The notes under the pieces were generated by a model, which saw nothing but the letters and a program-made list of their open reading frames with translations, was not told where the DNA came from and ran no database searches. Positions 40,501 through 62,749 of a stretch of DNA of 64,000 nucleotides are shown in pieces. The DNA is from Mytilus galloprovincialis (lineage: Eukaryota; Mollusca; Bivalvia; Mytilida; Mytilidae): assembly GCF_965363235.1 (NCBI RefSeq), contig NC_134842.1:6599112-6663111 (forward strand), read 5' to 3'. The translations under genes and the position numbers were made by a program. Positions within the stretch are counted from its first letter, which is position 1. Every line of letters starts with the position of its first letter.

Positions 40501-43500
40501 TTTTAGATTTTCCAGGTATCTCAGCCACAGCTGAAACAAGAATACATCTAACACTGAAAAGGTTTGTATACGGTTATATTATATATTATGCAGGGTTTCC
40601 CCTGGGTCAATTACTTTTTTCGCCACCTCTTTAGCCAAAACAATATATTTTTCGCCACTTTATTATTTGTTTCGCCAAGTAACACAAATATATTTTTCTA
40701 TTAAAATTTTTCTTTTTTAGCTCACCTGGCCCGAAGGGCCAAGTGAGCTTTTCTCATCACTTGGCGTCCGTCGTCCGTCATCGTCGTCGTCTGTCGTCGT
40801 TAACTTTTACAAAAATCTTCTCCTCTGAAACTACTGGGCCAAATTAAACCAAACTTGGCCACAATCATCATTGGGGTATCTAGTTTAAAAAATGTGTGGC
40901 GTGACCCGCCAAACCAACCAAGATGGCCGCCATGGCTAAAAATAGAACATAGGGGTTAAATGCAGTTTTTGGCTTATAACTCAAAAACCAAAGCATTTAG
41001 AGCAAATCTGACACGGGGTAAAATTGTTTATCAGGTCAAGATCTATCTGCCCTGAAATTTTCAGATGAATCGGACAACCCGTTGTTGGGTTGCTGCCCCT
41101 GAATTGGTAATTTTAGGTAAATTTTGCTGTTTTTGGTTATTTTCTTGAATATTATTATCGATAGAGATAAACTGTAAACAGCAATAATGTTCAGCAAAGT
41201 AAGATCTACAAATAAGTCAACATAACCAAAATGGTCAATTGACCCCTTTAGGAGTTATTGCCCTTTATAGTCAATTTTTAACCATTTTTTGTAAATCTTA
41301 GTAATCTTTTACAAAAATCTTCTCCTCTGAAACTACCAAGCCAAATTAAAACAAACTTGGCCACAATCATGATTGGGGTATATAGTTTAAAAAATGTGTG
41401 GCGTGACCCAGCCAATTAACCAAGATGGCCGCCATGGCTAAAAATAGAACATAGGGGTAAAATGCAGTTTTTGGCTTATAACTCAAAAACCAAAGCATTT
41501 AGAGCAAATCTGACAGGGAGTAAAATTGTTTATCAGTTCAAGATCTATCTGCCCTGAAATTTTCAGATGAATTGGACAACACGTTGTTGGGTTGCTGCCC
41601 CTGAATTGGTAATTTTAGGGAAATTTTGCTGTTTTTCGTTATTATCTTGAATATTATTATAGATAGAGATAAACTGTAAACAGAAATAATGTTCATCAAA
41701 GTAAGATCTACAAATAAGTCAACATGATCAAAATGGTCAGTTAACCCCTTTATGAGTTATTGCTCTTTACAGTCAATTTTTAACCATTTTACGTAAATCT
41801 TAGTAATCTTTTACAAAAATCTTCTCCTCTAAAACTACCAGGATAAATTAAAACAAACTTGGCCGCAATCATTATTGGGGTACCTAGTTTAAAAAATGTG
41901 TGGCATGACCTGGCCAACCAACCAACATGGCTGCCATGGCTAAAAATAGAACATAGGGGTAAAATGCAGTTTTTGGCTAAAACTCAAAAACCAAAGCATT
42001 TAGAGCAAATCTGACAGGGAGTAAAATTGTTTATCAGGTCAAGATCAATCTGCCATGAAATTTGCAGATGGATCGGACAACCTGCTGTTAGGTTGCTGCC
42101 CCTGAATTAGTCATTTTAAGGAAATTTTGCCGTTTTTTGTTATTATCTTGAATATTATTATAGATAGAGATAAACTTTAAACAGCAACAATGTACAACAA
42201 AGTAAGACCCAAAAATAAGTTAACATGACCAAAATGGTCAATTGACCCCTTAAGGAGTTATTGTCCTTTATAGTGCATTTTTAACAATTTTCATAAAATT
42301 TGTAAATTTTAACTAACATTTTCGACTAAAACTTTTAGGCCAAGTTCAATATAGATAGAAATAATTGTAAACAGCAAGAATGTTCAGTAAAGTAAGATGT
42401 ACAAACACATCACCATCACCAAAACACAATTTTGTCATGAATTCAAATGCATCCTTTGTTTAATATTCACATAGACCAAGGTGAGCGACACAGGCTCTTT
42501 GGAGCCTCTAGTTTTCGAGCCCCCCCCCCCTAAAAAAGAAGTGGTTTTTACAATAGATCAAAGTATCTTATCACTTGGAATTGATCCCTCGTGTAAGGTG
42601 TAATCATTACATTGGAGGGTTACTCTCATGCCAACCTTTTGAATCGATTTTTCCATAACGACAGTTTTCTTTTCTAAACCATCGTAAATAAGTAAAACTA
42701 TATGCTTGAAACACGTGTGTCACTGAAACGACTTTGAATTACCCACTCAAATAAATGATCTATACGAAAGTTAAATAATAAAGTTTTAAATCAGAGACTT
42801 TTCTTGCTTTTGGACATTTTTCGTCATAACAATAATTTTCTTTTCTGGACTATCATTTTAAAAAAGGAGAGAAAGCGAAAAACTTTGCTTCAAACACGTG
42901 CGTTCCTTTTGTGACATTTGACAAAAGCCATTTAACCATATCATACAATCAACACCTTAATTAATTAGTCCTTTGATGTCGATAGCTATGAATGCAATCA
43001 GCTGGTTATTGATTTTCTGTCAAAATCTTAACGAGTTCAAGGTGAATTCCGAGTATTGTCTGATCGGTAAAGTCAGAGAAACCTGAAAAAAGTAAATAAA
43101 CAAGATGGCTGAAATTAATCGTTCTATATATTTCTATCGCCAAATTCTTTCGCCAATGACGAATTTTAATCACCATAATTATTATTTTTTCGCAAATTGC
43201 GAAAATGGGGACTGCCAGCGGAAACCCTGTATTATGCCTTTTATAAATTATACATACATGACATATTGTTCATGTTGTTACATCATGCATATACAATGTA
43301 TTGGTACAAAATGCAAAAAGTTAAAATAAAAGTTTAAAACAAATCAAATAAGTCTCTTTTAAATATGTACTATTTAATTAATATCTACCCATATATGGAC
43401 CATAATTCGGTATTCAGCTTTTGGTTTCTTTTTCTATCCTTTTTTATTAGTTCTAAAACTTTAACTTTTATTCTGTGGGTTGTGTTGGTATTTGAATAGT

Positions 43501-46500
43501 ATGAATGGAACAATTGAGTTTTTCGAGAAAAAATTAATACATTTTGATTCACCGTTTACGTGACAGGAAACCAAACAGGAAAGCAATTTTTATTTTCTTT
43601 ATTTTGCACAATATATTTCAAAAGACATAAATGAACACCATTACTAGTGTGACTTGCTTCATGTTAATATTTAAAATCTATTTTCAATGTTAAATTCAAG
43701 TTTTTTTTAAACGTGACAGGAAACCATAAGAAACCGAAAGCATTTTTTTAGTTTTATTTTATTGCAAAATCTGCATAAAATAATCTGAACAGTATACTTT
43801 TTCTTAAAATCCATCTTAAATGTAACAGTATTATAAAACTCCTAAATATGTGCTTGTTTTGAAAACAATTAGTACAATTTATTCAGAAATTTCCATATTT
43901 TCTTTATTGATACAGGATACCATAATCGTTGTATCTTGATGTTTTAGCCAAAAAAATATTTTTATATTTGGTTTTGAACTTCCAGTTATATACAATTTAT
44001 TCCAAATCATTGGCAATGTAAAATTCTTTAAATCCAGTAAAGAAAAAAACTTTTAACTTGGAATTAAAATCTTTAAAATAGGCACCATGTGATATTTGTG
44101 ACCTGTACACCATCTACATGGTTTCCTCATTTTAACCTACTTTAGTGGGCTAAAATCAAGAAAGTACTTCCTTTCAAGTCATGCCTGGTAAAAGTTTACT
44201 TTTCCTTTGACAAGTTTATTGTGTTTCTGAAAGGTGTTTGCAGAACATGAATAAAAAAACTTAATTAAAAATTGTGACAAAGATACCATCTTTGTACATT
44301 CCAAGTGTAACGGTATATTAACATGTATTTTTTATTAAATGATCTTTATTCACCTAAAATATCCAGTAATATTTACTGCTGAAGCAAAATCAATCCAACG
44401 AACATCGGCACCATGATAAAAGAGGTAATTTCGATTGAATTTTCCAAGGACCCTTTACATCGTTATTGGGAGACGAAGTGTGTTAAAACGTCGGTCAAAT
44501 CTGAAATCGATTTTGTCAAGTCATTGGGCATTTGTTTTCACACAAGATTGTATGTAGCATTATGCACATAGGAAAAATAATAGACCCCCGGCGCAATCTC
44601 TTTGAAAATTGAATTTTCCTTTTTAGCTCACCTGGCCTAAAAGGCCGTGTGAGCTTTTCTCATCACTTGGCGTCCGTGTCGACGTCGTCGTCTATCGTCG
44701 TTAACAATTTTTCAAACATCTTCTCCTCTGAAACTACTGAATGGATTTGAATGAAACTTAGCATGATTGTTCCTTAGTATATCCTGCACAAAATGTGCGC
44801 TTCGATTTTTGATCCTTCAAAAAACATGGCCGCCGTTACTTAAAATAGAACATAGGGGTCAAATGCAGTTTTTGGCTTATATCTCAAAAACGAAAGCATT
44901 TAGAGCAAATCTGACATGGGTTAAAAATGTTCATTAGGTCAATATCTATCAGCCCTGAAATTTTCAGATGAATCAAACAACCAATTGTTGGGTTGCTGCC
45001 ACTTAATTGGTAATTTTAAGGAAATTTTGCAGTTTTTGGTCATTATCTTGAATATTATTATAGATAAAGATAAACTGTAAACAGCAAAAGTGATCAGCAA
45101 AGTAAGATCTACAAATAAGTTAATATGACCAAAATTGTCAATTGACCCCTTAAGGGGTTATTGTCCTTTAATGACAATTTTTCACAATTTGTTCATCATA
45201 TTTGCTATCTTTAAAAAATCTTCTCCTCTGAAACTACTGAATGGATTTGGTTAAAACTTAGCATGATTGTTCCTTAGATTATCCTGCACAAAGTGTGTGC
45301 TTAGATTTTTGATCCGTCAAAAAACATGGCCGCCATTACTTAAAATAGAACATAGGGGTCAAATGCAGTTTTGGGCTTATATCTCAAAAACGAAAGCATT
45401 TAGAGCAAATCTGACATGGGATAAAAATGTTCATTAGGTCAAGATCTATCAGCCCTGAAATTTTCAGATGAATCAAACAAATCGTTGTTGGGTTGCTGCC
45501 ACTTAATTGGTAATTTTAAGGAAATTTTGCAGTTTTTGGTCATTATCTTGAATATTATTATAGATAAAGATAAACTGTAAACAGCAAAAGTGATCAGCAA
45601 AGTAAGATCTACAAATAAGTTAATATGACCAAAATTGTCAATTGACCCCTTAAGGGGTTATTGTCCTTTAATGACAATTTTTCACAATTTGTTCATCATA
45701 TTTGCTATCTTTAAAAAATCTTCTCCTCTGAAACTACTGAATGGATTTGGTTAAAACTTAGCATGATTGTTCCTTAGATTATCCTGCACAAAGTGTGTGC
45801 TTAGATTTTTGATCCGTCAAAAAACATGGCCGCCATTACTTAAAATAGAACATAGGGGTCAAATGCAGTTTTGGGCTTATATCTCAAAAACGAAAGCATT
45901 TAGAGCAAATCTGACATGGGTTACAAATGTTCATTAGGTCAATATCTATCAGCCCTGAAATTTTCAGATGAATCAAACAACCAATTGTTGGGTTGCTGCC
46001 ACTTAATTGGTAATTTTAAGGAAATTTTGCAGTTTTTGGTCATTATCTTGAATATTATTATAGATAAAGATAAACTGTAAACAGCAAAAATGATCAGCAA
46101 AGTAAGATCTACAAATAAGTTTTATATGACCAAAATTGTCAATTGACCCCTTAAGGGGTTATTGTCCTTTAATGACAATTTTTCACAATTTGTTCATCAT
46201 ATTTGCTATCTTTAAAAAATCTTCTCCTCTGAAACTACTGAATGGATTTGGTTAAAACTTAGCATGATTGTTCCTTAGATTATCCTGCACAAAGTGTGTG
46301 CTTAGATTTTTGATCTGTCAAAAAACATGGCCGCCATTACTTAAAACAGAACATAGGGGTCAAATGCAGTTTTGGGCTTATATCTCAAAAACGAAAGCAT
46401 TTAGAGCAAATCTGACATGGGTTAAAAATGTTCATTAGGTCAATATCTATCAGCCCTGAAATTTTCAGATGAATCAAACAACCAATTGTTGGGTTGCTGC

Positions 46501-49500
46501 CACTTAATTGGTAATTTTAAGGAAATTTTGCAGTTTTTGGTCATTATCTTGAATATTATTATAGATAAAGATAAACTGTAAACAGCAAAAATGATCAGCA
46601 AAGTAAGATCTACAAATAAGTTTATATGACCAAAATTGTCAATTGACCCCTTAAGGGGTTATTGTCCTTTAATGACAATTTTTCACAATTTGTTCATCAT
46701 ATTTGCTAACTTTAAAAAATCTTCTCCTCTAAAACTACTCAACTAAATTCAACCAAACTTCAACTGAATGATCAGTAGGGTGTATAAAATAAACTTTGTG
46801 CTTTATTTTTTATTTCGTCAAAAAACATGGCCGTCATGGCTAAAAATAGATCACAGGGTAAAATGCAGTTTTTGGCTTATATCTCAAAAACTCCAGCATT
46901 TAGAGCAAATAAGACAAGATGTTCAAGTATTTATTAGGTCAAGGTCTACCTGTCCTGAAATTTTCAGCCGAATTGGGTAACTGGTTTTTCAGGTATAATG
47001 CCCCTGAATTGATGATTTTAAAGAAATTTTGCAGTTTTTGGTTATTATCTTGAATACTATTATAGATACAGATAAACTGTTAATAGCAAAAATGTTAAGC
47101 AAAGTAAGATCTACAAATAAGTCAATTTGACCAAAATTGTCAATTGACCCCTTAAGGAGTTATTGCCCTTTAAAGACTTTTTTCACAATTTGTTCATCAT
47201 GTTGACTTACTTTTTTCTTCTGACTATTCTTATTGGTCGATGTTCTTTGTTATTTGAAAGCAAAAGTTACGAATTTGCCGGTGACGATTATCTATAAATC
47301 AGTCAGCGTTATGCACTTTGGAAGCAAAAAGTAATGTGAGAAAGGACACAAAAATGCGGTTGTATAATCTTTGAAATTTGTTAATTTCAATTTTTTTTCT
47401 AGGGAAGAGTATACGTAGCATACACTTGTATGTTGATAAAAATAATAGCATCTTTAGATGTAGTTAAAACTTTTCTTACAGTAATTCACAATTTTATCAC
47501 TTTTCTATAGTTATAGGAAACGAGCCCAATAGCAAATTATGGTCCATATGCAGTATTTGCAATATATTTTGGAATTGGCTGGAAAACTATCACTAATCAC
47601 TTGATTGGAATAATTATACAGATTATCAATGGATATTGACTTGTTAAAATAATTTATCATATACTTAGACTAGATAACATATAAATTTTACTGTATGATA
47701 ATAGCATTAAATTGACATAAATTTCATATTTTTGAATTGGAGCTTAGCGGGCTGATATGAAAAGTTTATAACATGCTTCAATTGTTATCACATGCCTTTC
47801 CGTAACGTTATCACATGGCATTCCGGTGATACTCGGCCAATTCCGGAAAATATACTTCAATGCTACGCTTTCAGTGAAAAACATTACAAAGTAGTGTACA
47901 AAACAATTATAATGGAAAGTATATCGTGTAAAATAATAAAAATAATTAAAAAACAAACAAATTATTAAATAAATGCATTTTTTAATTTTTTTCTGAAACA
48001 TAATTTAAAAAGTTTCTTTTAAAACATTGACTTTTCCGAACAATGTTCATAATTATGTATACATGTGTATTGTTGAATTTATTTTTTTTTGGTAGATTCG
48101 TTTTAATTAAACTGTTGTTTGTTTTTCTTTCTGTCGAGGCATATGATAGAAAAAAAATATATTGAATGTATCAAATTTTGGGTCCGACGTTCGTGAACGT
48201 TTTTACTCTTTAAACTTCGGGAACCATGTAAAAGGATCAATACATTAATCTGTTTACTGTTGAAGCATATGATAAAAAGATCATAACATGTCATTTTTCA
48301 TATCGTATGTATTATCAACCCTCGAGCCATGCGGCTCTTGGGCTGATATTAAACCTAGGGCTGATAATACATGCGATATGAAAAATGCCATGTAATAATC
48401 TGATATCATTTAACATACAAAATTTGTAAGTGCAGTTCCTTCTTGTGAATAAAGATTATTTTAAGTGATTATGTCTGATCAGAGAATGATTGAGTGATTA
48501 CAACTTATTCATAATTTTGCAGGAAAGTTCCTTCTAGTGAGTTAAGTGATTCAGTCAGTGATTGTTTAGTAAGAGACAGTATAGTAGTAACTAAGGTAAT
48601 ATCATTCTCTCCCATTTAAAAAAACCCTCAATAAAACACCAGCAGAAGATATCAATAAGTAGAGATCATATTTTTCTGAATGATTGCATTTGTTAAACCA
48701 AAATTCTTAATTGTCAAATGATTGTCATTATTGTAAAGAATTATCAACTGATCACAAATTATGTTCAATATTATCTGTATTTACCACCAAAAAAAACCTG
48801 TATATTAATTTTTCTCGTAAGTTCTGTTTACCTTAAAATTACTAATAATATATTAAGATTTGATGTTTATGAAAATGAAGTTCCTATTTGTCTGTTAGTT
48901 TTATTTTTCTAATCATAAACCCTTGTTTTGTAGAAACCTCCAAAACCAACAACTTTAAAGGAGACAGGAGAAATAATCAAAGATTTAATCTTGTGTGTGC
49001 AGAGACATGAAAATAAATGTAGGTATACTCCTGATAGGAGAAATTACTAACTCACTGATTTCAAACAAAATTATATGTTAGAGAAATGTCAGTAACATCA
49101 AAGAAATATGATATATATGTATTTGCATTTAGCCAGACACTAGATAGGCATGATCTGTCAGATCCATATTTTGCACTGCTTAGCACTTTAAATCACATTT
49201 GAGAGGTTTTATATTCCATTTTGTTATGAAGGAGCATTATTAGATAACTCCTCAACATTTGATTTAGTCTCTGTTTATTTTGCAGATGCACCCAACAGAA
49301 CAAATTGTGTCAGGAACCTTACATGGGAGGTCAGTAAGCTGGATGAAAAGAGTTTTCTACAACTGTCTCACTCGGCCTTGAATAATACATGCAGAATCTC
49401 AGATATCAAATGTCTGGAGGAGAGATATCTCATGATAGATGTGATATCTCAGATGAGATCCAATGTATCACAACAGATCATTGTAGATTATGTCTTGGAG

Positions 49501-52500: not shown

Positions 52501-55500
52501 GCAAAAAATATACCTTAAGATATACTCTATATAATTCTACTCTTTTATGCATGTCTACATTAATCTTCTAGGTGGAGATAGAAGAATTGTATTTTCATTT
52601 TTATATTTTAGAGTGCTGCACATCTTTTAAGATCAACCTTGTTTGACTCTGAAGATATAGTGAGACATAGTGCCTATGAGATTTATGTAGAACACCCTGA
52701 GAGTAAACAACTGACAAAAGAGCAAGAAGATGCTGTGCTGGCGTAAGTTTACTTTTCATGTTAATTTTGGGTAATATTAAATAGCAAAAGGGTCTGAAAT
52801 GGTGTAATTTTAATCAACAGCTTGTCCTATATTAGTTTTATATAAAATTGAATTCTTAGATTCATAGTTTTTATGTCCTCCCAACTTATGAATTGAGCCA
52901 CATATTTTTGTATTATAGATATTATTGCAAAGTTAATGCTTTATGGTAAAATTTTCAAAAGTGCAGCCTGCAATGTTAGCCACTAGTTGGATGCCCTAGA
53001 CTAGTAAAATATTATTCAGACTAGTAAATTTTTGTTTAGGCATACACATGTACAAAAAGTAATGAATATTTGTCTTTCGACTAATTGTTGGAAAATGATT
53101 AAATGTACTGCATTATATTATGATTGGTTAGGAACACCTTTTAAAACAATCATACCTGTCAACCTCTGAAAATGAAAAGTCAGGTCATGACCTGCATTGA
53201 GAAAAAAAATCTCAGGTCATAACGCGTACGACATTTTGCGGGCTCAATTGAAGAACAAAAATATGTTTACATATAATTTATATAGTCAATATGTATATGA
53301 AACAGTTAGAACATGTATACAAGTTTATTTCAGACTATTGTTATATTCCATAGTAGCAGACTTGGCATTCTTTAAAAGAACTGCACTTGGTTTCAGTTCA
53401 TAGCAATGCAAATGTGTATTCATTTTACAAGAAAGAAGAGCACACAGTGTATCCTTATTAAGATCAGCCCTAAACTCTGTAGCTATTTTCTTTACTAAAG
53501 AAAATGCCCTCTCACTGCCTGCATTGCTGTTTGGCAAAACCAGTAATGTTTTAGCAAGTTTTGACAAAACAAAAAATCTTGGCTTGTTAATAAAAATGTC
53601 ATGCAACTTGGACATTTCTCCCCAAAATGTACCAATGTCAGTTTCAGGGGAAGTGCAAAGTGGAAGTTCATCTAATGGGGTCAACTGATAGTCACTGAAC
53701 TCATCTTGTAGCTTTGTTGTCTCTTCATTTCGTTACGTAGCTCAGGTAAACAGTCCTACATTTTGACTTTTGGTTACATTGAAAAAGACCGATAAAACCG
53801 AAGGTCGTATTACTTCAAAATACCGGAAACAATTCCGGTCAGAAATCCGGGTGAAACGGGTAATGTTAGAAATTCCCGGGACCCGCCGGGTAAAGAAAAA
53901 CTCCCGGGTGAGAGGTGAAAATAACGGGTGTCACCCGCAAAAAACGGGTGAGTTGACAGGTATGAACAATAGATATCCAACAAAATCTTTATTTTTTCAC
54001 TTTGGTGTTCAAGCAATAAAATTAAATCTTTCACATTTTTGAAATTATGATTTAAGTTTGTTTACAGTGATTTTATATATCTTTACATTACAGACAATAC
54101 TATACTTACCCAGTTGTAACAAGAGTCAGACGAGGAACTCTAGCAGACATTCTAAAGGCATTAAGTTTCCATCTTGGCATGCCAAAGTTTGACTGGAGTA
54201 AGACAGTTGGCAGTAAGAAGTTAGGAGCATCCTTTGGATTCAGACAAGAAAATTTTGTAGACTTGCATCTAGGTATGAATCTAATTACAAATGGAAGATC
54301 ATACAATACAATATAAGGAAAGACTCTCAATAGCATGGTTTTACTTGAAGTTGCCATTCTGCTTTCAGTTGCTAACTAATTCTATATGACATAAATATTA
54401 ATATTAGTAATAGACTAAATATGATAGTGAAATAATTTGATAGTAATAGTTACTGTTGTCAAATTCAACATTTAATTACTTCCTAGCGTTTGCCCTTAAT
54501 CTGGATTTGTATGTCAAGTATTTAATACAAAAATAAGGGGGAGTGTCTGTTTGTTGGGTCACATATCGTTGTCAACATATATGGAATTTGAAGCGATTTT
54601 TATGATTGTCAATGAGACTTAAATCAACCAAAGTTAAACAAAGTGGATGTAAGCTATTATAGGCAATTCAACAATACAGCTTTCAAACAATGAAAAAAAT
54701 CCCATACCTTATAGACTGCTATCCTGTGATCTTATACCTTTAAAACATGTACCTTATATTCTGAAATAAGAGATTGACACCCAAATCTCTTCCCATACAA
54801 GTTTGGCATATGAAATATGTTGAACAAAACTTATTTCAAAAATCATAATCAATTAGATAATATTCTGTCCTGTTTTTCAGAGCCATTCCAAGGGAAGTTT
54901 GAACTGAAAGTAGATAACATGGCTTTTGCTGAAGTAAATGTTGGTCTCATTGGAAAGAAATTTGACATCTTCAAAGTGTCTCTTTGTTACAAGAAAAAAG
55001 TGGAATATGATCTAAATGTGCTGAAGGTAATATGCTCTTCAACTTTGTACATGTTTGGCTTTAGAAATATTTTGATATGAGCGTCACTGATGAGTCTTAT
55101 GTAGACAAAATGCGCATCTGGCGTACTAAATTATAATTCTGGTACCTTTAATAACTTTTTATTAGAGGTATAAAACTTCAGCTTGTAAACACTGGTATAT
55201 GTCTTTTAAATGTCCATTTACGGTTTGTTTTCCATTTTGTAATATTTTAATTTAACTTTTCTTTAAAAAAAAAAGAAGACCTACTTAAGATTTTAAGTTT
55301 TTTTTTATGATAATTATAGTCTTACAATCTTTCTTTGTTATTATTTGAAATCCTTTATAAGCCCATTTGTATATTTAAACACTACAGTTATAGGACTATT
55401 GCTGAAGTAGATTGATATCCCATATTGTTAGGAAAAACCTGTAGATTAGAATACAAATGTATTTATGTTTTTAGAATTGTTCCAATTTTTGTTACTTTGA

Positions 55501-58500
55501 GAAAAACTTAGTAATTTACCTTATTTTGACATATCATTATTTGACCATCTTAGGTCAGGATTTTTTAATTTGTTGGTTTACGGATCCGCCTACCCGATTT
55601 TGCCGATTCCTAGAATAAAAATAAAATTGAATTTTCATGCTTTTTTATTCCCGCCGACCCAAACAAATACATTATCCCTGAAAAATAATTTAAATTCTTC
55701 TTTTTTTATGAAATGAAATGCATGAATCAATAACAAAAATGATAACACTCTCTGTTGTGAAAAAATAAAACTTCCAGTTTACGTTTCTAAAAATAGACAA
55801 ATCAATTATAACTGACCTTGAAATGTCGTTTACGCAAATAATTTTGCGGAACGAAATCTGTGTTTAAAACCCATTACACAATAAGTTCGTTTTCCTTATT
55901 TGTCATCAGTCTGTAAGATGCATAATCTCATAGAAATAGACTTGTCCAAATGTGGACAGGGAGGGTCCGAGTGGAAAGCACCTTGGAAATAAACTCATCA
56001 TAGATACCAGGACTAAATTAAGTATATACGCCAGACGCGCCAGACGTTTGACTGGAGTAAGACTGTTGGCAGTATACTCTGATCTTCCATTTGTAAATGT
56101 TGTAATTAGAGTCATACCAAGATATAAGTCTACAAAATTTTCTTGTCTGAATCCAAAGGATGCTCCTAACTTCTTACTGCCAACAGTCTTACTCCAGTCA
56201 AACGTCTGGCATGTCTGGCGTATATACTTAATTTAGTCCTGGTATCTATGATGAGTTTATTTCCAAGGTGCTTTATAAGCCCATTTGTATATTTAAACAC
56301 TGTTGGAGTAAGACTGTTGACTGTTTACTGGAAGTAAAAGTTCTGAATATCAACAAGTCATTTAGAATTTTCTTGTTTCATGGATAATAAAAGAAAAATA
56401 TCGTCCATTTGGATTAAAAACGGGAATGCATGACACTAGATTAACCAGATATTCTCGTTTTTTCCGTGGACGAGTCTATTACGTTTTTGACACATGTGTT
56501 GAAACTTATTTTCGTACGACGTTTTTTACATTTTTTTCTTTATCAGTTTTCGTTTTTGAAGATCATTACTCACCAAGTTTTCTGGAATTGATTAAGAGCT
56601 ACACGAATTTGTTTTTCTTGTTTGTGAAAAGACGATTTAATTTTGTCTTCGTCTGTGAACATCCCCCCTTTTTTTACGGCAAATCATTAGACAATGTCAT
56701 GCGATATTTATGACAGCTGAGCAAGAATATTTCATCGAACGTAAATTTGAAATGATGACAAAATAGCATAAAAACATTCATTTTGACATTTTGTTAGAAA
56801 GGTGAAATGTATATTTATTTTGCATTTTTTTTCTGTCTTGAAAGATATTTTTTTTCTTTTTTTCCCCGACCGACTGACCCGACTTTTTCATGGGGAAAAT
56901 CCGTTAACCAACAAATTAAAAAACCGTGGCCTTAAAGTCTGACAGCAATTTTTTTTTTAAGTATTTAAAGTTGTCTTTTCCCTTACCCATTTAAATTAAT
57001 ATACCACCAATATCAATGCATACAGTATTGCCTTTCTATCTAAAAAAAACAAAAAACAACAAATTGACTTTTTAATTTTTTTATTTGAAATACATACTAA
57101 AAAAGATGGTATTTTTTCAGGACTTTGGTTTTGATGATATTCAGAATGTAGCCACACTATTTGACAGACTATACAACATGATTATAGATCCAGTCTTAGA
57201 AGCTGCAAAAACCATAAAGGAACTCATTGAGATGGTGACAGAAATGACATTTGTCCAACTTGTCAAGGAAATCATAAAAATATTCAAAAATCTCCCAGAT
57301 ATAATTCACAAAATAGTTGAGTCAGTAGTTGCAGCGTATTATAAATTAATTGATTATGATGGCTATCCGTTAATTGACAGATTCAAGAAAGTGATTAACA
57401 GAGTAACGAACTTCATCACCGATGTAAAGTCTGATGTGTTAGGATTTTACCATGTAAGTGAACTGTTCCAACGTAATGATTAGTTCAGACTTAATCTTTT
57501 TCATCAATTTATTAAAGAATAAGTAAGGATCAGAATTATTTAAGAACTGCACATGTTAAAAATCTTTAAAAGAATAAGTGGAAATAAAAATCAAGCCACT
57601 GTGTTAAATTAAATTAATATCATGCTTTTTATCAAAATTATTATGTGTCTGACAGCTTTTTTAAGCTACATTTTGTGCAAAATTGTCAGATTTTAGAAGG
57701 ATTATACATAGAAAAAGCCACTTTTGTTTAAATAGAAAGACAACAAAAATGTCTATATTATTAGATCAAAACTATTGGAGTTAACTCCCCTTACATTAGT
57801 ATTTGAAAGAAGAAAAATTATCTTGAACATATGCATGAAATATTCTTAAAAAAATCAATCCAACAAACACAATTTCAATATTGATATAGGGAACTTTCCA
57901 TTTTTGAATTTTCCTCAGAGTTTAGTATTTTTGTGATTTTACTTTTTTCTAGAAATGAAATTCCCCAGTTTTTATGTCCCACCTACAATAGTAGAGGGGC
58001 ATTATGTTTTCTGGTCTGTAGGTCCGTTCGTCCTTCCTTTTGTCCGTTTGTTCCTTCATCCCACTTCATGTTAAAGTTTTTGGTCAAGGTAGTTTTTGAT
58101 GAAGTTGAAGTCCAATCAACTTGAAACTTAGTACACATGTTCTCTATGATATGATCTTTCTAATTTTAATGCCAAATAAGAGTTTTTACCCCAATTTCAA
58201 GGTCCACTGAACATAGAAAATGATAGTGCACAGTGATATTGTTTGCCTTAAATTAGTGGAGAATAAAGGCTTTTTCCCCTGGAGAAGAATTTGAAAAAAA
58301 ATGGCTTAAAATTATTCCCAAAAAGACAACTTTTTTCCCAAACAGTGCAATCTCAGTAGTAATTGTGCATGCATACAAACTGAAAAACACTCATTTAAAC
58401 ATTTTTATGCCTAAAATGACTATATGTGCACATTTGAGTGTATATTTATGTATCATCACTGACAAAATGTGGTCTTATTTTAAAGCAGGGTTTTTACTCT

Positions 58501-60606
58501 TGAAAATGGGTCTGTAAATTGAGGTTTCAGTCAAATTCATGGTTAATTTTAAATTTCCCAATTTAATGAAAATGATGCATATTTTCCCAATGAAAAAGGG
58601 AAGTGGTAGTTTTGAAAAAAGCCAACAATATCACTGGTGCAAGTGGGGCATCTGTGTACTTGGGACACATTCTTGTTATGCCCCACCTACGATAGTAGAG
58701 GGCATTATGTTTCTGGTCTGTGGGTCCGTCCGTCCGTTCGTTCATCCTGCTTCAGGTTAAAGTTTTTGGTCAAGGTAGTTTTTGATGAAGTTGAAGTCCA
58801 ATCAACTTGAAACGTAGTAAACATGTTCCCTATATGACATGTATGATATGATATTTCTAATTTTAATACCAAATTAGAGTTTTTACCCCAATTTCAAGGT
58901 CCACTGAACATAGAAAATGATAGTGTGAGTAGGGCATCCATGTACTTGGGACACATTCTTGTTTTAATATTAAGCTGTGAAAGACCCCTCAAATGTCAAA
59001 ATGTGAAACAAGTCTACTTTTAAACAAAAATTATATGTTTTATTGTGTATTAGTTGTAATGTAAGGGCATCTTGTTTGTTTCAGTGTATTGTATTGTAAA
59101 TTGAAAACTGTATGTTTTAGAGTATAGCAGATGCAATGACAGTTACTCTACCATTTGTGGCCCATGAGATGGGGGAAGGATTTATCTTAATCAAAGACAG
59201 CTGGAAATTCTGGGAAAATCCTGTGCAATCATTTAATGGCATTGAAATGGCACTTCTCAAGTAAGTACGAACAATGTATTGCACACATTTCACAAAATCA
59301 AATGTCAAATGAACTATATTTTCTTCCTCAATCCACCCAGAATGCTGCTCATATTAAATTCAATGAACAAATTAACATTAAAAAATGTCCCTCTGGATTT
59401 GTTTTTCAGGAACCCAAGAAATAATTTCTGTTGCTTCAAATTCCAAATCTCAATGTATTGATTTTCAGATTTAAATTAGCTGTTGCAACCTTCATTGAAG
59501 CCAAGAACAGAATAATGGATTCCTGTTTTTTTGCTAAAGGTAAAATTAAATTATAACTTCACAATTAATGTAATATACTGCACACAAAGTTCATCAACAT
59601 TTTCATTTATGGGCATTATGTTTTCTGGTCGTCTGTTCGTTCGTCTGTCAGTCTGTCCGGCTTCAAGTTAAAGTTTTTGGTCAAGGTAGTTTTTGATGAA
59701 GTTGAAGTCCAATCAAGTTGAAACTTAGTACACATGTTCCCTATGATATGATCTTTCTAATTTAATGCCAAAGTAGAGATTTTCCCCCATTTTCACGGTC
59801 CACTGAACATAGAAAATGATAGTGCAGATTGGGCATCCGTGTACTGGGGACACATTCTTCTTGATATATTGATATGAGAAGACTATAGATTTACTAAGTT
59901 CATAATGACTTCATATTTGTTTAGCAGCAATGACGTATACAACATATGAGTTATGCATACTTCTCTGTAGTCCAAATAATTATGACGTCTTGAAAGGCTC
60001 TTATATTTTTTTTCTTTGACGCCTTAGTCGAAGTAAGGCGTCAAAAAAAAAATATAATAGCCTTTCAAGACGTCATAATTATTTGGACTAACTTCTGTAG
60101 CTAGGACATTCTTATTAAACAGATATTTCTAGTTGACATAAATAAATATAAGTTGTAGAACAGGCATCACTGCCAAAAGAAGGAAAATCAATGAAAGCAA
60201 AATAATATACACAGAATAAAAGATTGAGTAATACAACTTAGGTCAAGTAGCTTATACATATTATATAGTTCCTGCTGAAGGTATGACATCATTCAGTTCT
60301 TACTATGGTCCTCCTTAGAATATGGTCAGAATAAGTTCCATGGATGGCTAAACCGTTCTTGTTCTGCTGACCTTGTGACATGTAATGATACATTATATTG
60401 TATTGTATATGATAAAATTGTACATGACGATTTTTACAGGACAAACTCCATACTGGTTTCATCCTGTAGTAGAAATTAAAGGTATACTAACAGACTTGAA
60501 GGATATTTATAACATGACTAAAGAGGAAATCCATGATATATACCATAACCCAACAGCCAGTTCAAGTCTGTCACCAGATATGATTACTGATGGGTTTAAT
60601 GTTAAT
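31369..60606 (+). CDS. Large lipid transfer protein (vitellogenin/apolipophorin/MTP superfamily), N-terminal 927 residues; 3' end beyond window
   Basis: Twenty-two exons with matching phases: 31369-31500, 32230-32323, 34604-34640, 35301-35430, 35782-35833, 36846-36946, 37448-37545, 39884-39930, 40507-40561, 48523-48595, 48934-49018, 49286-49569, 50103-50157, 50862-51005, 52028-52254, 52612-52742, 54094-54272, 54881-55026, 57121-57453, 59121-59260, 59469-59539, 60440-60606. They give 2781 bases, 927 codons. Layout: signal peptide 1-14; vitellogenin-N beta barrel to about 300; alpha-helical superhelix about 300-620 (for example HILGNAGHSRSLQHITSYME and LRRAATQALRQF); start of the lipid-cavity sheets about 620-690; then a helix-rich stretch 691-927 that I do not recognise. 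Family knowledge: LLTPs bind and move lipids in hemolymph or the secretory route. Whether this is a yolk protein, a lipophorin-like carrier or an MTP-like protein cannot be told; the C-terminus (vWD or other) is missing. Confidence 0.82.
31811..31956. repeat. Short inverted-repeat (hairpin) element in LLTP intron 1
   Basis: Left arm ATTAGGTCAATGTCAGAAAA and right arm TTTTCTTACATTGACCTAAT are near-perfect inverses, about 30-35 bases each, with an inner stretch of about 80 bases. No coding content. Confidence 0.7.
32230..32323 (+). CDS. LLTP exon 2
   Basis: Acceptor TTTTTTCCAG, donor GTAAGA. Reads FRIQKINETNTGIKFHQLSV, then DSFVQHAQNGE. Phase 0 in, 1 out. An alternative donor six bases earlier (GTGAAT) keeps the same phase. 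Confidence 0.75.
32787..33070 (-). repeat. TGTCCC-family repeat, reverse copy
   Basis: Runs AACAAGAATGTGTCCC ... CACTATCATTTTCTATGTAC ... GACGAACGGACGGACGAAC ... CCAGAAAACACCATGCCC. It is the reverse of the copies at 57973, 58678 and 59605. Lies in LLTP intron 2. Confidence 0.7.
33356..34407 (-). mobile_element. Broken retroelement: reverse-transcriptase C-terminal part plus 3' non-coding end
   Basis: In LLTP intron 2. The protein patch at 34407-33988 contains YGFYISQLVRFARVCNNVLD and LLHQGFRYHKLVKTFTKFYH, matching the C-terminal region of the reverse transcriptase common in bivalves (tentatively Penelope-like). It is followed by a 3' non-coding part to 33356 that ends in the AATGGGGAATGTGTCAAAGA block. 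5'-truncated and non-functional. Confidence 0.65.
34604..34640 (+). CDS. LLTP exon 3 (37-base micro-exon)
   Basis: Acceptor ATCTTACAG, donor GTATAC. It encodes Y-ADNPFKWDLTK-R across both junctions and is the only piece found that turns the phase-1 end of exon 2 into the phase-2 start of exon 4. It lies between retroelement debris on both sides. Confidence 0.78.
34975..35215 (+). repeat. Dispersed repeat, same family as 25440-25790
   Basis: Carries CTATAAAACCAGGTTTAATC, CCACCATTTTCTACATTTG and TGATTTTGCCATTTGATTAG. A partial second copy lies at about 34405-34500. In LLTP intron 3, ending about 85 bases before exon 4. Confidence 0.65.
35301..35430 (+). CDS. LLTP exon 4
   Basis: Reads FLFEMEPDGLVHFIHYHQED, KTEMVTLKKALVGTMSAKFQ. 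It matches the place in LLTPs where a short strand leads to the helix before the N-sheet ('..D..V..I......E....N.K+G+.S.FQ'). Acceptor TTTTTAG, donor GTATAA. Confidence 0.85.
35782..35833 (+). CDS. LLTP exon 5
   Basis: A 52-base exon, RSDHQTWRYLSTDGDHG, followed by a split Gly codon. Acceptor TTTTTTCCAG, donor GTAATA. The G-x-H-G-G turn leads into the next exon. Confidence 0.8.
36197..36814 (+). mobile_element. Retroelement 3' end, inverted relative to 33356-33969
   Basis: The same 3' non-coding sequence as at 33969-33356 but on the plus strand: CAGTTGTTGGCATGACACGG at the start, ACATCTTCTGACATCAGACT in the middle, GGTCGGGTTGTTGTCTCTTT near the end. No coding part. Ends 32 bases before LLTP exon 6. 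Confidence 0.7.
36846..36946 (+). CDS. LLTP exon 6
   Basis: Reads YLDHKYDGEKTTNGYTLTRH and ends RTVMRTHKK. Acceptor TGTTTCAG, donor GTAAGC. A retroelement 3' fragment ends about 32 bases upstream of the acceptor. Confidence 0.85.
37448..37545 (+). CDS. LLTP exon 7
   Basis: Reads VMHVDHSDNIREVKAFDNIT and ends APATQRTL. Acceptor TATTACAG, donor GTATGT. Phase 2 out. Continues the alternating strands of the N-terminal barrel. Confidence 0.84.
37546..39883. other. LLTP intron 7
   Basis: Contains a short GACGAAACGCGCGCC repeat at about 38320-38415 (+). A 121-codon open frame on the minus strand (38983-38618) has no recognised motif and is probably chance or element debris. Nothing else seen. Confidence 0.5.
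39884..39930 (+). CDS. LLTP exon 8 (47-base exon)
   Basis: Reads SPLPVDREIKVYSS with split Gly codons at both ends. Acceptor TTTCTTACAG, donor GTGATA. Supported mainly by phase (2 in, 1 out) with its neighbours. Confidence 0.72.
40507..40561 (+). CDS. LLTP exon 9 (55-base exon)
   Basis: Reads FPGISATAETRIHLTLK. Acceptor TTTTAG, donor GTTTGT. It is followed by an 8-kb intron packed with repeats; a hAT-like element begins 30 bases downstream at 40591. Confidence 0.76.
40591..43229. mobile_element. hAT-like non-autonomous element carrying a nested element
   Basis: Ends CAGGGTTTCCCCTGG (left) and CAGCGGAAACCCTG (right) are inverted repeats. Direct repeats TATTATG stand directly outside (40584-40590 and 43230-43236), close to the 8-bp hAT norm. 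The subterminal parts repeat TTCGCCA-type words (40620-40680; 43135-43200). The middle, 40719-42516, is a separate inserted element. No transposase seen. Lies in LLTP intron 9. Confidence 0.72.
40719..42516 (+). mobile_element. AGCTCACCTGG element with three tandem units (~502 bp); Helitron/Helentron-like in structure
   Basis: Begins with a palindrome (AGCTCACCTGGCCC / GGGCCAAGTGAGCT), then a GTCCGTCGTCCGTC tract, then three units of 502-503 bases (CTTCTCCTCTG at 40816, 41319 and 41821), and ends in a hairpin AGGCTCTTTGGAGCCT followed by CTAG and T's. A terminal hairpin with CTAG resembles Helitron-type 3' ends; internal tandem units are known for non-autonomous Helentron relatives. The class is inference. 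Confidence 0.7.
43237..44624. other. Part of LLTP intron 9
   Basis: AT-rich; some T-rich runs; no gene or recognised repeat. Confidence 0.5.
44625..47210 (+). mobile_element. AGCTCACCTGG element with five tandem units (500 bp)
   Basis: The opening palindrome AGCTCACCTGGCC / GGCCGTGTGAGCT and the GTCCGTGTCGACGTCGTC tract are followed by units whose CTTCTCCTCTG mark stands at 44720, 45220, 45720, 46221 and 46721 (spacing 500, 500, 501, 500). Units 2-4 are almost identical; unit 5 is the most diverged. The CTAG hairpin end of the family is not present, so the 3' end is truncated. In LLTP intron 9. Confidence 0.75.
48287..48400. repeat. Small inverted-repeat element
   Basis: Left arm TTTTTCATATCGTATGTATT and right arm AATACATGCGATATGAAAAA are inverses with a loop of about 40 bases containing GAGCCATGCGGCTC. 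It ends about 120 bases before LLTP exon 10. Confidence 0.65.
48523..48595 (+). CDS. LLTP exon 10
   Basis: Reads KVPSSELSDSVSDCLVRDSI, VVTK. Acceptor TTTGCAG, donor GTAATA. Phase 0 out. Confidence 0.8.
48934..49018 (+). CDS. LLTP exon 11
   Basis: Reads KPPKPTTLKETGEIIKDLIL, CVQRHENK; the first helices of the superhelical domain. Acceptor TTTTGTAG, donor GTAGGT. Phase 1 out. Confidence 0.82.
49286..49569 (+). CDS. LLTP exon 12: superhelix
   Basis: A 284-base exon with the helical repeats VRNLTWEVSKLDEKSFLQL, CRISDIKCLEERYLMIDVIS and a C-x(7)-C pair. Ends ATKQPTS. Acceptor TTTGCAG, donor GTAAGT. Confidence 0.88.
49665..49985. repeat. Dispersed repeat (GATTGCCAATGAGACAACTC block)
   Basis: Reads GATTGCCAATGAGACAACTC, then GGCCTTCAACAATGAGAAAA and CCATACCACATAGTC. 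Shorter copies at about 52445-52510 and 54590-54760; reverse pieces at about 29160-29215 and 50575-50630. In LLTP intron 12. Confidence 0.6.
50103..50157 (+). CDS. LLTP exon 13 (55-base exon)
   Basis: Reads YLVQAVEHLCLGNNHSFH, one superhelix helix. Acceptor CTTTTCAG, donor GTAATG. Phase 1 out. Confidence 0.82.
50862..51005 (+). CDS. LLTP exon 14: superhelix
   Basis: Reads NKDMTLTQKRACLTLGALAK, then NLKDIENDTEAQKIIEKFET. Acceptor TTTAAACAG, donor GTATTG. Phase 1 on both sides. Confidence 0.86.
51124..51787 (+). mobile_element. Tandem-array element, 168-bp units
   Basis: Opens with a palindromic TACCCCCGCTTTAAAAAAGG / GGGGTATA end and a CTGTCAGTCCGTCCGTCC tract. Units are marked by CGTCACATTTTTCTCAGGAA at 51243, 51411 and 51579 (period 168). 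Near the 3' end is a hairpin GTGAGCAGTAGCTCAC. Overlapping open frames here (51306-51791) are products of the repeat. In LLTP intron 14. Confidence 0.7.
52028..52254 (+). CDS. LLTP exon 15: superhelix core
   Basis: A 227-base exon. Reads EFIEIVKPRERRSLGRKYHD, ALKRSLIHILGNAGHSRSLQ, LRRAATQALRQFTCNE, the most typical vitellogenin-N helical segment in the window (L-x-N-A-G-H, R-x-A-A-x-x-A-L). The RERR stretch is rich in basic residues and could be a processing site, which is only a guess. Acceptor TATTTAAG, donor GTAATA. Confidence 0.9.
52612..52742 (+). CDS. LLTP exon 16: superhelix
   Basis: Reads SAAHLLRSTLFDSEDIVRHS, AYEIYVEHPESKQLTKEQED. The R-H-x-A-Y-E-I-Y segment corresponds to the 'V..+A+......P' helices late in the LLTP superhelix. 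Acceptor ATTTTAG, donor GTAAGT. Phase 2 out. Confidence 0.88.
53151..53964 (-). mobile_element. hAT transposon remnant with transposase C-terminal domain
   Basis: 814 bases with inverted ends CATACCTGTCAAC / GTTGACAGGTATG and the direct repeat AACAAT outside both ends (53145-53150, 53965-53970). The minus-strand frame at 53684-53325 has the hAT dimerisation signature: LAKTLLVLPNSNAGSERAFS, then LVKKIATEFRADL and LLSCKMN. Only this C-terminal part of a transposase survives, so the copy is non-autonomous. The right 100 bases repeat the words CGGGT / ACCCG many times. A single related end lies at about 60799-60935. In LLTP intron 16. Confidence 0.8.
54094..54272 (+). CDS. LLTP exon 17: start of lipid-cavity sheet
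   Basis: Reads QYYTYPVVTRVRRGTLADIL, KALSFHLGMPKFDWSKTVGS, KKLGASFGFRQENFVDLHL. Acceptor CATTACAG, donor GTATGA at 54273. The 3' part of this exon plus its donor region (about 54185-54302) is copied in reverse at about 56083-56204. Confidence 0.88.
54881..55026 (+). CDS. LLTP exon 18: beta sheet
   Basis: Reads PFQGKFELKVDNMAFAEVNV, GLIGKKFDIFKVSLCYKKKV; amphipathic strands as in the lipid cavity. Acceptor TGTTTTTCAG, donor GTAATA. A dispersed repeat begins only a few bases inside the following intron. Confidence 0.88.
55032..55160 (+). repeat. Short dispersed repeat starting just inside LLTP intron 18
   Basis: ATGCTCTTCAACTTTGTAC, GAGCGTCACTGATGAGTC and TCTGGTACCTTTAATAAC, the same family as 27230-27355. 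Begins 5 bases after the donor GT of exon 18. Confidence 0.75.
55553..56931. mobile_element. PIF/Harbinger-like non-autonomous element containing a hairpin
   Basis: Imperfect inverted ends GGTCAGGATTTTTTAATTTG (left) and the reverse of GGCCACGGTTTTTTAATTTG (right), flanked by TTA on both sides (55550-55552, 56932-56934), as is usual for PIF/Harbinger. No transposase seen; the open frame at 56426-56713 has no recognised motif. Carries the 300-bp hairpin at 55975-56274. Confidence 0.62.
55975..56274. repeat. Long hairpin: two 100-bp arms around an inverted copy of LLTP exon 17
   Basis: Arms 55975-56074 and 56175-56274 are inverse copies with 2 mismatches in 100. The 100-base loop plus the inner 30 bases of the right arm (about 56083-56204) is an antisense copy of exon 17's 3' part, its splice donor and the start of the next intron (about 54185-54302). 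The inner 30 bases of the left arm are the sense copy of exon 17. The outer arms are a dispersed mussel-type repeat (GGACTAAATTAAGTATATAC). Confidence 0.85.
57121..57453 (+). CDS. LLTP exon 19: long amphipathic helical segment
   Basis: A 333-base, 111-codon exon, phase 0-0. Reads DFGFDDIQNVATLFDRLYNM, then helices such as IKELIEMVTEMTFVQLVKEI and FKKVINRVTNFITDVKSDVL. Long amphipathic helices with few cysteines; I do not recognise a named domain. Acceptor TTTTTTCAG, donor GTAAGT. Confidence 0.86.
57973..58677 (+). repeat. TGTCCC-family repeat, copy 1 (interrupted)
   Basis: TATGTCCCACCTACAATAG start, GTTTTTGGTCAAGGTAG and GAAGTTGAAGTCCAATCAAC inside, GGGACACATTCTTGTT end at about 58677. Interrupted at 58231-58636 by another element. 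In LLTP intron 19. Confidence 0.72.
58231..58636. mobile_element. 406-bp terminal-inverted-repeat element inserted in a TGTCCC-family repeat
   Basis: Ends CAGTGATATTGTTTGCC and GCCAACAATATCACTG are inverted repeats; GTGCA is duplicated on both sides (58226-58230 and 58637-58641). Removing the element restores the host repeat, whose other copies give the empty-site sequence. No protein-coding content recognised. Confidence 0.75.
58678..58965 (+). repeat. TGTCCC-family repeat, copy 2
   Basis: Directly follows copy 1. GCCCCACCTACGATAGTAGA start, a GGTCCGTCCGTCCGTTCG tract, and the GGGACACATTCTTGTT end. Uninterrupted. Confidence 0.72.
59121..59260 (+). CDS. LLTP exon 20
   Basis: Reads SIADAMTVTLPFVAHEMGEG, FILIKDSWKFWENPVQSFNG. 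Acceptor TGTTTTAG, donor GTAAGT. Phase 2 out. Continues the helix-rich stretch. Confidence 0.84.
59469..59539 (+). CDS. LLTP exon 21
   Basis: Reads FKLAVATFIEAKNRIMDSCF, FAK with split codons at both ends. Acceptor ATTTTCAG, donor GTAAAA. Confidence 0.82.
59605..59870 (+). repeat. TGTCCC-family repeat, copy 3
   Basis: Starts inside the family consensus at GGGCATTATGTTTTCTGGTC and ends GGGGACACATTCTTCTTG. In LLTP intron 21. Confidence 0.7.
59969..60089. repeat. 121-bp palindromic element
   Basis: Left arm AGTCCAAATAATTATGACGT and right arm ACGTCATAATTATTTGGACT are exact inverses; the match runs with few changes to a tiny loop around TAGTCGAAG. A single similar end occurs at about 40419-40440. 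In LLTP intron 21. Confidence 0.8.
60440..60606 (+). CDS. LLTP exon 22 (last exon seen in window)
   Basis: Reads QTPYWFHPVVEIKGILTDLK, DIYNMTKEEIHDIYHNPTAS and ends DMITDGFNVN. Acceptor TTTTTACAG, donor GTAAGT, phase 0. A normal donor and no stop mean the gene continues; I found no further exon up to 64000. Confidence 0.85.
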
Positions 60607-61886: not shown

Positions 61887-62749
61887 TAGTCCGAGATTAC
61901 TCTGACGTCCAACGGCTGTTTTGCCAGACAAGCTGGGGCCGTAGGACGTCAGAGCTCGTCCCATATCAAAAAGTGGATATTTGCCCACCCAAAGTAGATG
62001 CGCTGCTTCGTCGCTTCTGGTGCCGACTGACGGCCTTGGAATTATATAAATCGGGCATCAATCTGTTAATTTTTCATTTATCTTTTCATTTATGTAAGTT
62101 TCACCTACCTGCCAACCTTTATTTGTCCATATTTTAACAGTTTTCACAGAGACCCATCGGTTTCTGCATTTTGCCTTTCATTTTCAAAGATTATCACGTG
62201 ACCGCGAGAAAACAATGATGATTTATGCAAATGACCATAATGTAACACCTCGTTCATTTACGATGCAAGTTATCTAAATGTCCGAGAGCTTCCGATTGTT
62301 CTCGTGGTCTGAACTAAATGCTTAATACCGATCTCCTGTAAAGGAGGTGAAAAATCGTGGTTGGCTACTAAATGTTAAACATCGATCTCCTTCAAATTTG
62401 AATATTTGAGTCTCGAGGCCACGAACTCTCTCGTAACTTGACGTCCATCTGAAAGTGAAAGTCAAAATGCAGAAATCGATGGGTCTCTGAGAAAACTGTT
62501 AAAATATGGAAAAATAAAAGTTGGGAGGTAGGTGAAACTTACATAAATGAAAAGATAAATGAAAAATGAACAGATTGATGCCTGATTTATATAATTCCAA
62601 GGCCGTCAGTCGGCACCAGAAGCGACGAAGCAGCGCATCTATTCTGGGTGGGCAAATATCCACTTTTTGATATGGGACGAGCTCTGACGTCCCACGGCCC
62701 CAGCTTGTCTGGCAAAACAGCTGTTGGACGTCAGAGTAATCTCGGACTA
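61887..62749. mobile_element. 863-bp foldback element with ~300-bp inverted arms and 8-bp target duplication
   Basis: Ends TAGTCCGAGATTACTCTGAC and its inverse. The arms extend from 61887 to about 62190 and from about 62450 to 62749 with only scattered differences. TAAAACGC stands directly outside both ends (61879-61886 and 62750-62757). The central 260 bases carry no open frame. An 8-bp duplication and TAG ends fit a hAT-type non-autonomous element. Beyond the last LLTP exon seen. Confidence 0.85.

Follow-up and report, generated by a model that had tools for sequence, protein, structure and literature searches.

Single-copy Pack-TIRs of animals, as described by Tan et al. (2021), arise by transposition-independent gap filling (PMC8277862). 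According to the figures in that survey, the parental copies are located in cis within 15 kb in 160 of 281 cases (56.9%), most of them at less than 5 kb, microhomology is present at one or more breakpoints in 190 of 281, the median gap amounts to 4.6% of the element, and breakpoints are skewed inwards (PMC8277862); its main text has no occurrence of 'mollus' or 'Harbinger'. A second type of repair product is represented by the inserts of polymerase theta, which average about 10 bp in the account given in PMC5068794, where snap-back forms a minor part.

The hairpin described here, at 6655086–6655385 on contig C5, occupies positions 55975–56274 of the window, i.e. the whole stretch of 64,000 nucleotides of Mytilus galloprovincialis DNA that was analysed. 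Like the gap-filled Pack-TIRs portrayed in PMC8277862, it contains host sequence in an otherwise intact TIR transposon, with a source in cis at less than 5 kb and an internal breakpoint.

The recipient transposon and its host gene

The sequences flanking the hairpin on the left and on the right are the two halves of one multicopy transposon, the boundaries of which are as follows.

55550–55552, no strand: left target-site duplication, TTA
55553–56931, plus strand: TIR transposon located in an LLTP-gene intron, about 1.0 kb long when the filler is subtracted and bounded by terminal inverted repeats of about 33 bp
56932–56934, no strand: right target-site duplication, TTA

A perfect 3-bp target duplication is found in all 11 copies inspected (the window copy and the ten best-scoring others), being TTA or TAA in nine, TAT in one and TGA in one. 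The PIF/Harbinger superfamily makes 3-bp target duplications of the TWA type, and the nine TTA/TAA duplications suggest membership in this superfamily, the name being provisional. Searches with the two halves returned at least 39 other copies for each, and in the 23 copies common to both lists the halves are 8–13 bp apart, which is the native sequence at that place; the remaining 16 copies per list have no partner among the matches listed for the other half. When a copy was queried across the site, 40 of 40 copies scored, among them that of the query itself, were uninterrupted, a count to be read with the ranking in mind, as such lists put uninterrupted copies first and thus favour them. Since the scored copies are uninterrupted at the site, about 340 bp would have been added to the window copy after it landed. 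Both TIRs and the TTA duplication enclose this 340-bp filler, the breakpoint is internal (425 of 1023 transposon bases, 0.42 along), and at the entry and exit of the filler no transposon base is lost while five (TGGAA) are duplicated.

The host gene is tentatively labelled LLTP (large lipid transfer protein) from one Pfam match just above the cut-off, a weak match of the joined exon translations to Vitellogenin_N (26.6 bits; cut-off 24). Three exons alone matched no LLTP family in Pfam, none was hit when an LLTP structure was sought among solved structures, and an ANTH match (23.1 bits, cut-off 21.5), which scored 20.9 on a longer translation, was taken for chance. A paralogous LLTP gene (L003) is located on contig C5 at approximately 6.920–6.946 Mb, on the opposite strand and about 276 kb away, with many exons matching at roughly 76–96%. 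Upstream of the exon that served as template, an intron contains a remnant of a hAT transposase C-terminal dimerisation domain (53325–53732, minus strand; Pfam PF05699, E 9.1e-9). Farther away, a long tandem array with a spacing of about 500 bp (40714–47197) aligns to a stretch of the paralogue (L026) that lies between the exons corresponding to those at 54881 and 57121, and an imperfect inverted repeat (33348–33973 and 36193–36821) has arms of about 630 bp, 92% alike, and a 2.2-kb spacer.

Composition and sources of the filler

The filler is a mosaic, the pieces and templates of which can be read directly.

54187–54302, plus strand: source of the exon copies, comprising the 3' part of the exon 54094–54272, the splice donor and the first intron bases
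55353–55383, plus strand: template of the 31-mer, located outside the transposon at a distance of 170 bp
55961–55971, plus strand: 11 extra bases, absent from 10 aligned copies
55975–56074, plus strand: left arm of the hairpin, 100 nt
55975–55988, plus strand: native transposon sequence AAAGCACCTTGGAA, the first 14 bp of the left arm
55989–56040, plus strand: dispersed-repeat fragment, 52 bp, with 100% identity over 54 bp in several copies elsewhere
56046–56074, plus strand: sense exon copy, 29 nt, source 54187–54215, 28 of 29 identical
56080–56203, minus strand: antisense copy of exon and donor, source 54301–54187, with a 6-nt re-copy within 56091–56105
56175–56274, minus strand: right arm of the hairpin, in which the left arm is copied again in inverse orientation, the 14 native transposon bases included
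56271–56301, plus strand: 31-bp exact copy of 55353–55383, sharing CTTT with the arm end
56304–56319, plus strand: second exon scrap, 16 of 16 identical to the filler's own exon copy and 15 of 16 to the exon
56329–56333, plus strand: transposon resumes, TGGAA repeating 55984–55988

The two arms are 98% complementary over 100 nt (2 of 100 differ) and are separated by a 100-nt spacer, as had been proposed in the first-pass annotation. The two mismatches lie side by side at 56037 and 56038, where the left arm reads CGCG and the right arm CATG; the latter equals the CATG of the exon, but two CpG losses would account for it equally well. The predicted RNA fold of the hairpin has an energy of -195.6 kcal/mol (shuffle mean -62.0, z -28), and since none of 200 shuffles equals it, the fold is not due to chance.

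Alignment to the exon 54094–54272 bears out the same annotation's reading of the loop as antisense exon with a splice donor, places its source range (54185–54302) correctly to within 2 bases, and trims its sense piece of 30 bases in the left arm to the 29 nt at 56046–56074. The segment 56100–56203 matches 54187–54290 in antisense over 104 nt with 5 mismatches, and 56080–56096 matches 54285–54301 in antisense at 17 of 17 positions, thus including intron bases past the donor. The three exon-derived copies all carry T where the exon has A, and at 54265, one of the sites where the filler differs from the exon, the filler has the base of the paralogue. A genome search with the exon returned itself, the paralogue and the filler. 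The paralogous gene was rejected as the exon source because its similarity is lower (91% over about 101 bp, compared with 94% over 114 bp for the local exon) and it has no match beyond the donor, where the local gene has the intron bases present in the filler. The exon source lies 1.7–2.0 kb from the filler.

The 14 native bases at the start of the left arm occur at the same place in 10 aligned copies, with one change each in L009 and L010. The dispersed-repeat fragment is followed by a 9-bp doublet (56029–56046) and then by the sense exon piece, and a few bases without a template stand between the end of this piece at 56074 and position 56080. After 56203 the sequence leaves the upstream order of the exon and becomes the inverse of the left arm to 56274, where the right arm holds the inverse of the 14 native transposon bases. 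This feature is decisive, since a recipient copied in inverse would be expected only with the left arm present beforehand. In the genome, 331 bp surrounding the source of the 31-mer match themselves and the filler, and nothing else. Short motifs that are apparently shared or re-copied are present at the joints, namely TGGAA at the rejoining, CTTT at the 31-mer, the 9-bp doublet and TTGTAA within 56091–56105, their lengths being readings by eye. For the 11 extra bases at 55961–55971, no template was found in the window, and they may belong to another event.

In the 1.385-Gb assembly, the 300-bp hairpin unit has one full-length match, which is itself (best 40 of 933 candidates scored); presence of the whole unit at many loci, which the first-pass annotation had named as a finding that would speak against its reading, was thus not encountered in this genome-wide search. 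Partial matches are those of query bases 5–66 or so to the dispersed repeat, and of the exon part to one paralogue besides the local exon. Of the 370 bases of 55961–56330, 143 are covered by exact 16-mers that also occur in the 5-kb flanks. As controls, 20 stretches of 10 kb were taken (seven around the paralogue, one adjoining the window and 12 on C1 and C2), and coverage was zero in 17 of them, the exceptions being L026 (71 bases), which contains the paralogous exon, and L033 (52) and L042 (58), which match the dispersed repeat. With 12-mers the local coverage is still 143, but 12 of the 20 controls are non-zero (12–97 bases) and the contrast is weaker.

The dispersed repeat makes up about half of each arm. 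A search of 264 kb (E below 1e-4) found it 18 times, twice in the hairpin arms, and other copies are located at 55079–55158, 38330–38422, 19859–19947 and further places. The best match of the filler's piece within the window reaches 87% (38371–38424), so that this one template was not local, and is either elsewhere or since lost.

Other hairpins are present in the vicinity, the window containing two with arms of at least 40 at 95% or more and a spacer of at most 500 (61887–62749 and 59968–60090). The former (61887–62186 and 62450–62749) has 300-bp arms that are 96% complementary and belongs to an ordinary foldback family, its left arm being 96–98% identical at the loci listed, several of them inverted pairs (best 40 of 1593 candidates scored), while the latter is a near-palindromic 123-bp element, multicopy genome-wide at about 91–97%. 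A background survey of 120 kb (12 stretches of 10 kb at regularly chosen positions on C1 and C2; arms of at least 60 at 95% or more, loop of at most 500) gave one such hairpin, L036:220–626, in which a tandem repeat unit is joined to part of a unit in inverted orientation; arm and loop alike are multicopy tandem repeat, and the whole is matched fully at its own place only (best 40 of 626 candidates scored). This BLAST-based survey undercounts, as it missed the hairpin 55975–56274 (self-alignment 78% end to end). Hairpins, even one-off inverted joins, are not rare in this genome, the four at hand being too few for a rate. Judged from its sequence, what is unusual at the locus is the composition of the filler from single-copy local sequence and not the hairpin as such.

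Proposed origin and alternative explanations

The hairpin was very probably built in place inside the TIR transposon by template switching and foldback within one repair. The mosaic, its sources, the empty-site copies and the re-copied recipient bases are seen in the sequence itself; the break, the order of the steps and the polymerase are inferred. The transposon would have inserted in the LLTP-gene intron with a TTA target-site duplication, and later a break or stalled fork would have occurred inside it, about 0.42 along. The 3' end at CACCTTGGAA may then have been extended by serial template switching, first onto a dispersed repeat and next, over about 1.8 kb, onto the exon of the gene itself, which would have been copied in sense and then in antisense. 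As the antisense copy is complementary to the new sense copy, the strand could have folded back and copied the left arm as far as the native transposon bases, before switching to the site 170 bp outside the transposon and then to the exon again, and the transposon would have been rejoined at the same five bases, TGGAA. The reverse polarity, starting from the right end, also fits.

Formation in place and not by transposition is indicated by the transposon bases re-copied in the right arm. The first-pass annotation had likewise preferred template switching to ordinary transposition, a preference now backed by the post-donor intron bases and the inverted recipient bases in the right arm, but it overlooked the multicopy TIR transposon as host, the dispersed-repeat origin of about half of each arm, the pieces at 56271–56319 and the extra bases at 55961–55971. 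Several observations fit the proposed origin less well. For the dispersed-repeat piece the window offers no close source, the joint into it shares six bases with one repeat copy (L004) and about two with each of the other three copies read, the locality contrast weakens with the shorter words, the bases at 55961–55971 have no template, and copied tracts reach 124 nt, far above the average reported for polymerase-theta inserts in PMC5068794.

Long, near-perfect arms with a gene fragment in the loop would also be expected of a Pack-type element, foldback or MITE-like and bounded by 100-bp terminal repeats, that brought the exon fragment by transposition and came to lie within the larger transposon; such families exist here, as seen from the 61887–62186 arms in inverted pairs and the multicopy 59968–60090, and the 5-bp TGGAA repeat flanks the filler like a target duplication. 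However, the 300-bp unit is found only once among the candidates scored, transposition gives no explanation for 14 recipient bases inverted in the right arm, and the filler runs past this arm into a copy of DNA outside the transposon, which makes such an origin extremely improbable; movement of arms and loop as a unit was rejected on the single full match and the inverted recipient bases. Inverted chimeras are a known class of artefact, and the structure is known from one assembly haplotype of one genome. A chimeric or template-switched read, in the library or the assembly, should nevertheless have left exact copies, whereas the exon copy differs at 5 of 104 positions and by small insertions, the arms differ at two, and at 54265 the filler carries a paralogue base that the exon does not have, so that an artefact is scarcely to be credited.

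More weight, though still well short of favouring it, is due to a history of two or more events, in which the repeat and exon pieces were inserted first and an inverted duplication made the hairpin later. The divergences of the parts would permit this, as they do not date them finely. The window transposon differs from the majority of ten copies at 23 of 996 positions, these references being picked as best hits and hence biased to alike copies (they differ by 0.3–1.1%); between filler and exon there are 5 differences in 104 positions (Fisher test versus the transposon, p 0.18), and between the two arms 2 in 100, compared with 4.6 predicted from the transposon's rate (Poisson p 0.16). An attempt to date the parts separately failed to separate their ages, and error-prone synthesis could contribute to the differences of the filler. 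A succession of events is opposed by the arm-loop layout, for which one event suffices, since pairing of the antisense exon with the sense copy takes the sequence on into the left arm, and by the T common to all three exon-derived copies, which is expected from one source or from self-copying. A single repair in place is thus the preferred explanation.

Possible function and comparison with known systems

The hairpin most likely has no function and is a neutral intronic scar. A functional element, in which the intronic hairpin and its antisense exon copy control how the exon is spliced or give rise to small RNAs directed against the gene, appears very unlikely. In its favour are the 98% paired stem formed by the arms and the predicted duplex between the antisense stretch and the exon with its donor (-181 kcal/mol, compared with -128 for the loop alone), and hairpin-RNA loci of Drosophila are reported to produce siRNAs (PMC10317233). 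Against it, the exon-derived part of the paired stem is only 29 bp, while 52 bp are common repeat, and the exon would be transcribed, and possibly spliced, before the hairpin exists. Altered splicing and small-RNA production from the hairpin, both suggested by the first-pass annotation, are conceivable effects of a loop-exon duplex. In a nested fold of 3.2 kb, 240 of the 300 bases of the hairpin are paired with one another and none of the 116 source bases with the filler; pairing of exon and filler is not predicted there, by an algorithm that cannot draw the pseudoknot needed for loop-exon pairing. A scan of the window with Rfam at gathering scores gave no matches. That the element could be moved in trans, and would thus be a newly born mobile hairpin-RNA locus directed against its gene of origin, is a highly doubtful prospect; if true, Pack-TIR gap filling would be connected with the way in which gene-derived hairpin RNAs originate. 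The strength of a hairpin and the presence of an antisense exon in it are not in themselves evidence of function.

Limited literature searches, by the repeat sequence and by bivalve combined with template switching, microhomology and inverted, found no paper, although one on bivalves may exist. With respect to the features by which gap filling is recognised in PMC8277862, the locus is single-copy, has a cis source within 15 kb and an internal breakpoint, and has lost no transposon base; short shared bases at the joints are a further likeness to the Pack-TIRs described there. As for the definition of a Pack-TIR in the same source, the non-TIR sequence between both ends of one TIR element falls within 100–5000 bp, and the parental copy is unambiguous at 90% or more (local exon, 94% over 114 bp), but the internal sequence lies outside 80–120% of the parental length, the exon source of about 116 bp amounting to a third of the 340-bp filler. 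By this length filter the locus is not filed as a strict Pack-TIR, only as working in the same way, and mosaics of this kind, which the filter as published excludes, may be under-counted. Unlike the Pack-TIRs of PMC8277862, the hairpin has a filler with several templates in both orientations and a foldback that made 100-bp arms.

Resemblances to scars of polymerase theta, as presented in PMC5068794, are re-iterated priming, templates near the break, error-prone copying and snap-back reverse-complement inserts, whereas the present filler has 340 bp in tracts of 16 to 124 nt. Local foldback inversions of yeast (PMC11724301) similarly involve an inverted copy of the break side made by hairpin priming, followed by capture of the other end; those in that report mostly measure 5–34 bp, with a maximum near 150, and are copies of the break end, while here an assembled patch is copied. 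Template-switch hairpin mutations (PMC8794818) likewise produce a stem in a single mutational step, the nascent or the complementary strand serving as template, but the cases given there concern RNA genes, in contrast to a 100-bp stem and switches over kilobases. Small inverted triplications (PMC13334657) share the inverted copy, in segments of about 150 bp there and 100 bp here, and the short junction, but the third, direct copy is only 5 bp at this locus, which differs from their DUP/INV/DUP structure.

The hairpin is a readable fossil of multi-template repair, most steps of which are traceable because the multicopy recipient shows what the empty site looks like and because two of the sources have no further copies other than the paralogue of the exon. 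It suggests that gap filling in animal transposons can include foldback synthesis, giving rise to hairpins with a host exon. In comparison with the systems above, the hairpin is apparently a specimen of a known kind of DNA-repair scar, to which it adds a filler made from multiple templates and by foldback.
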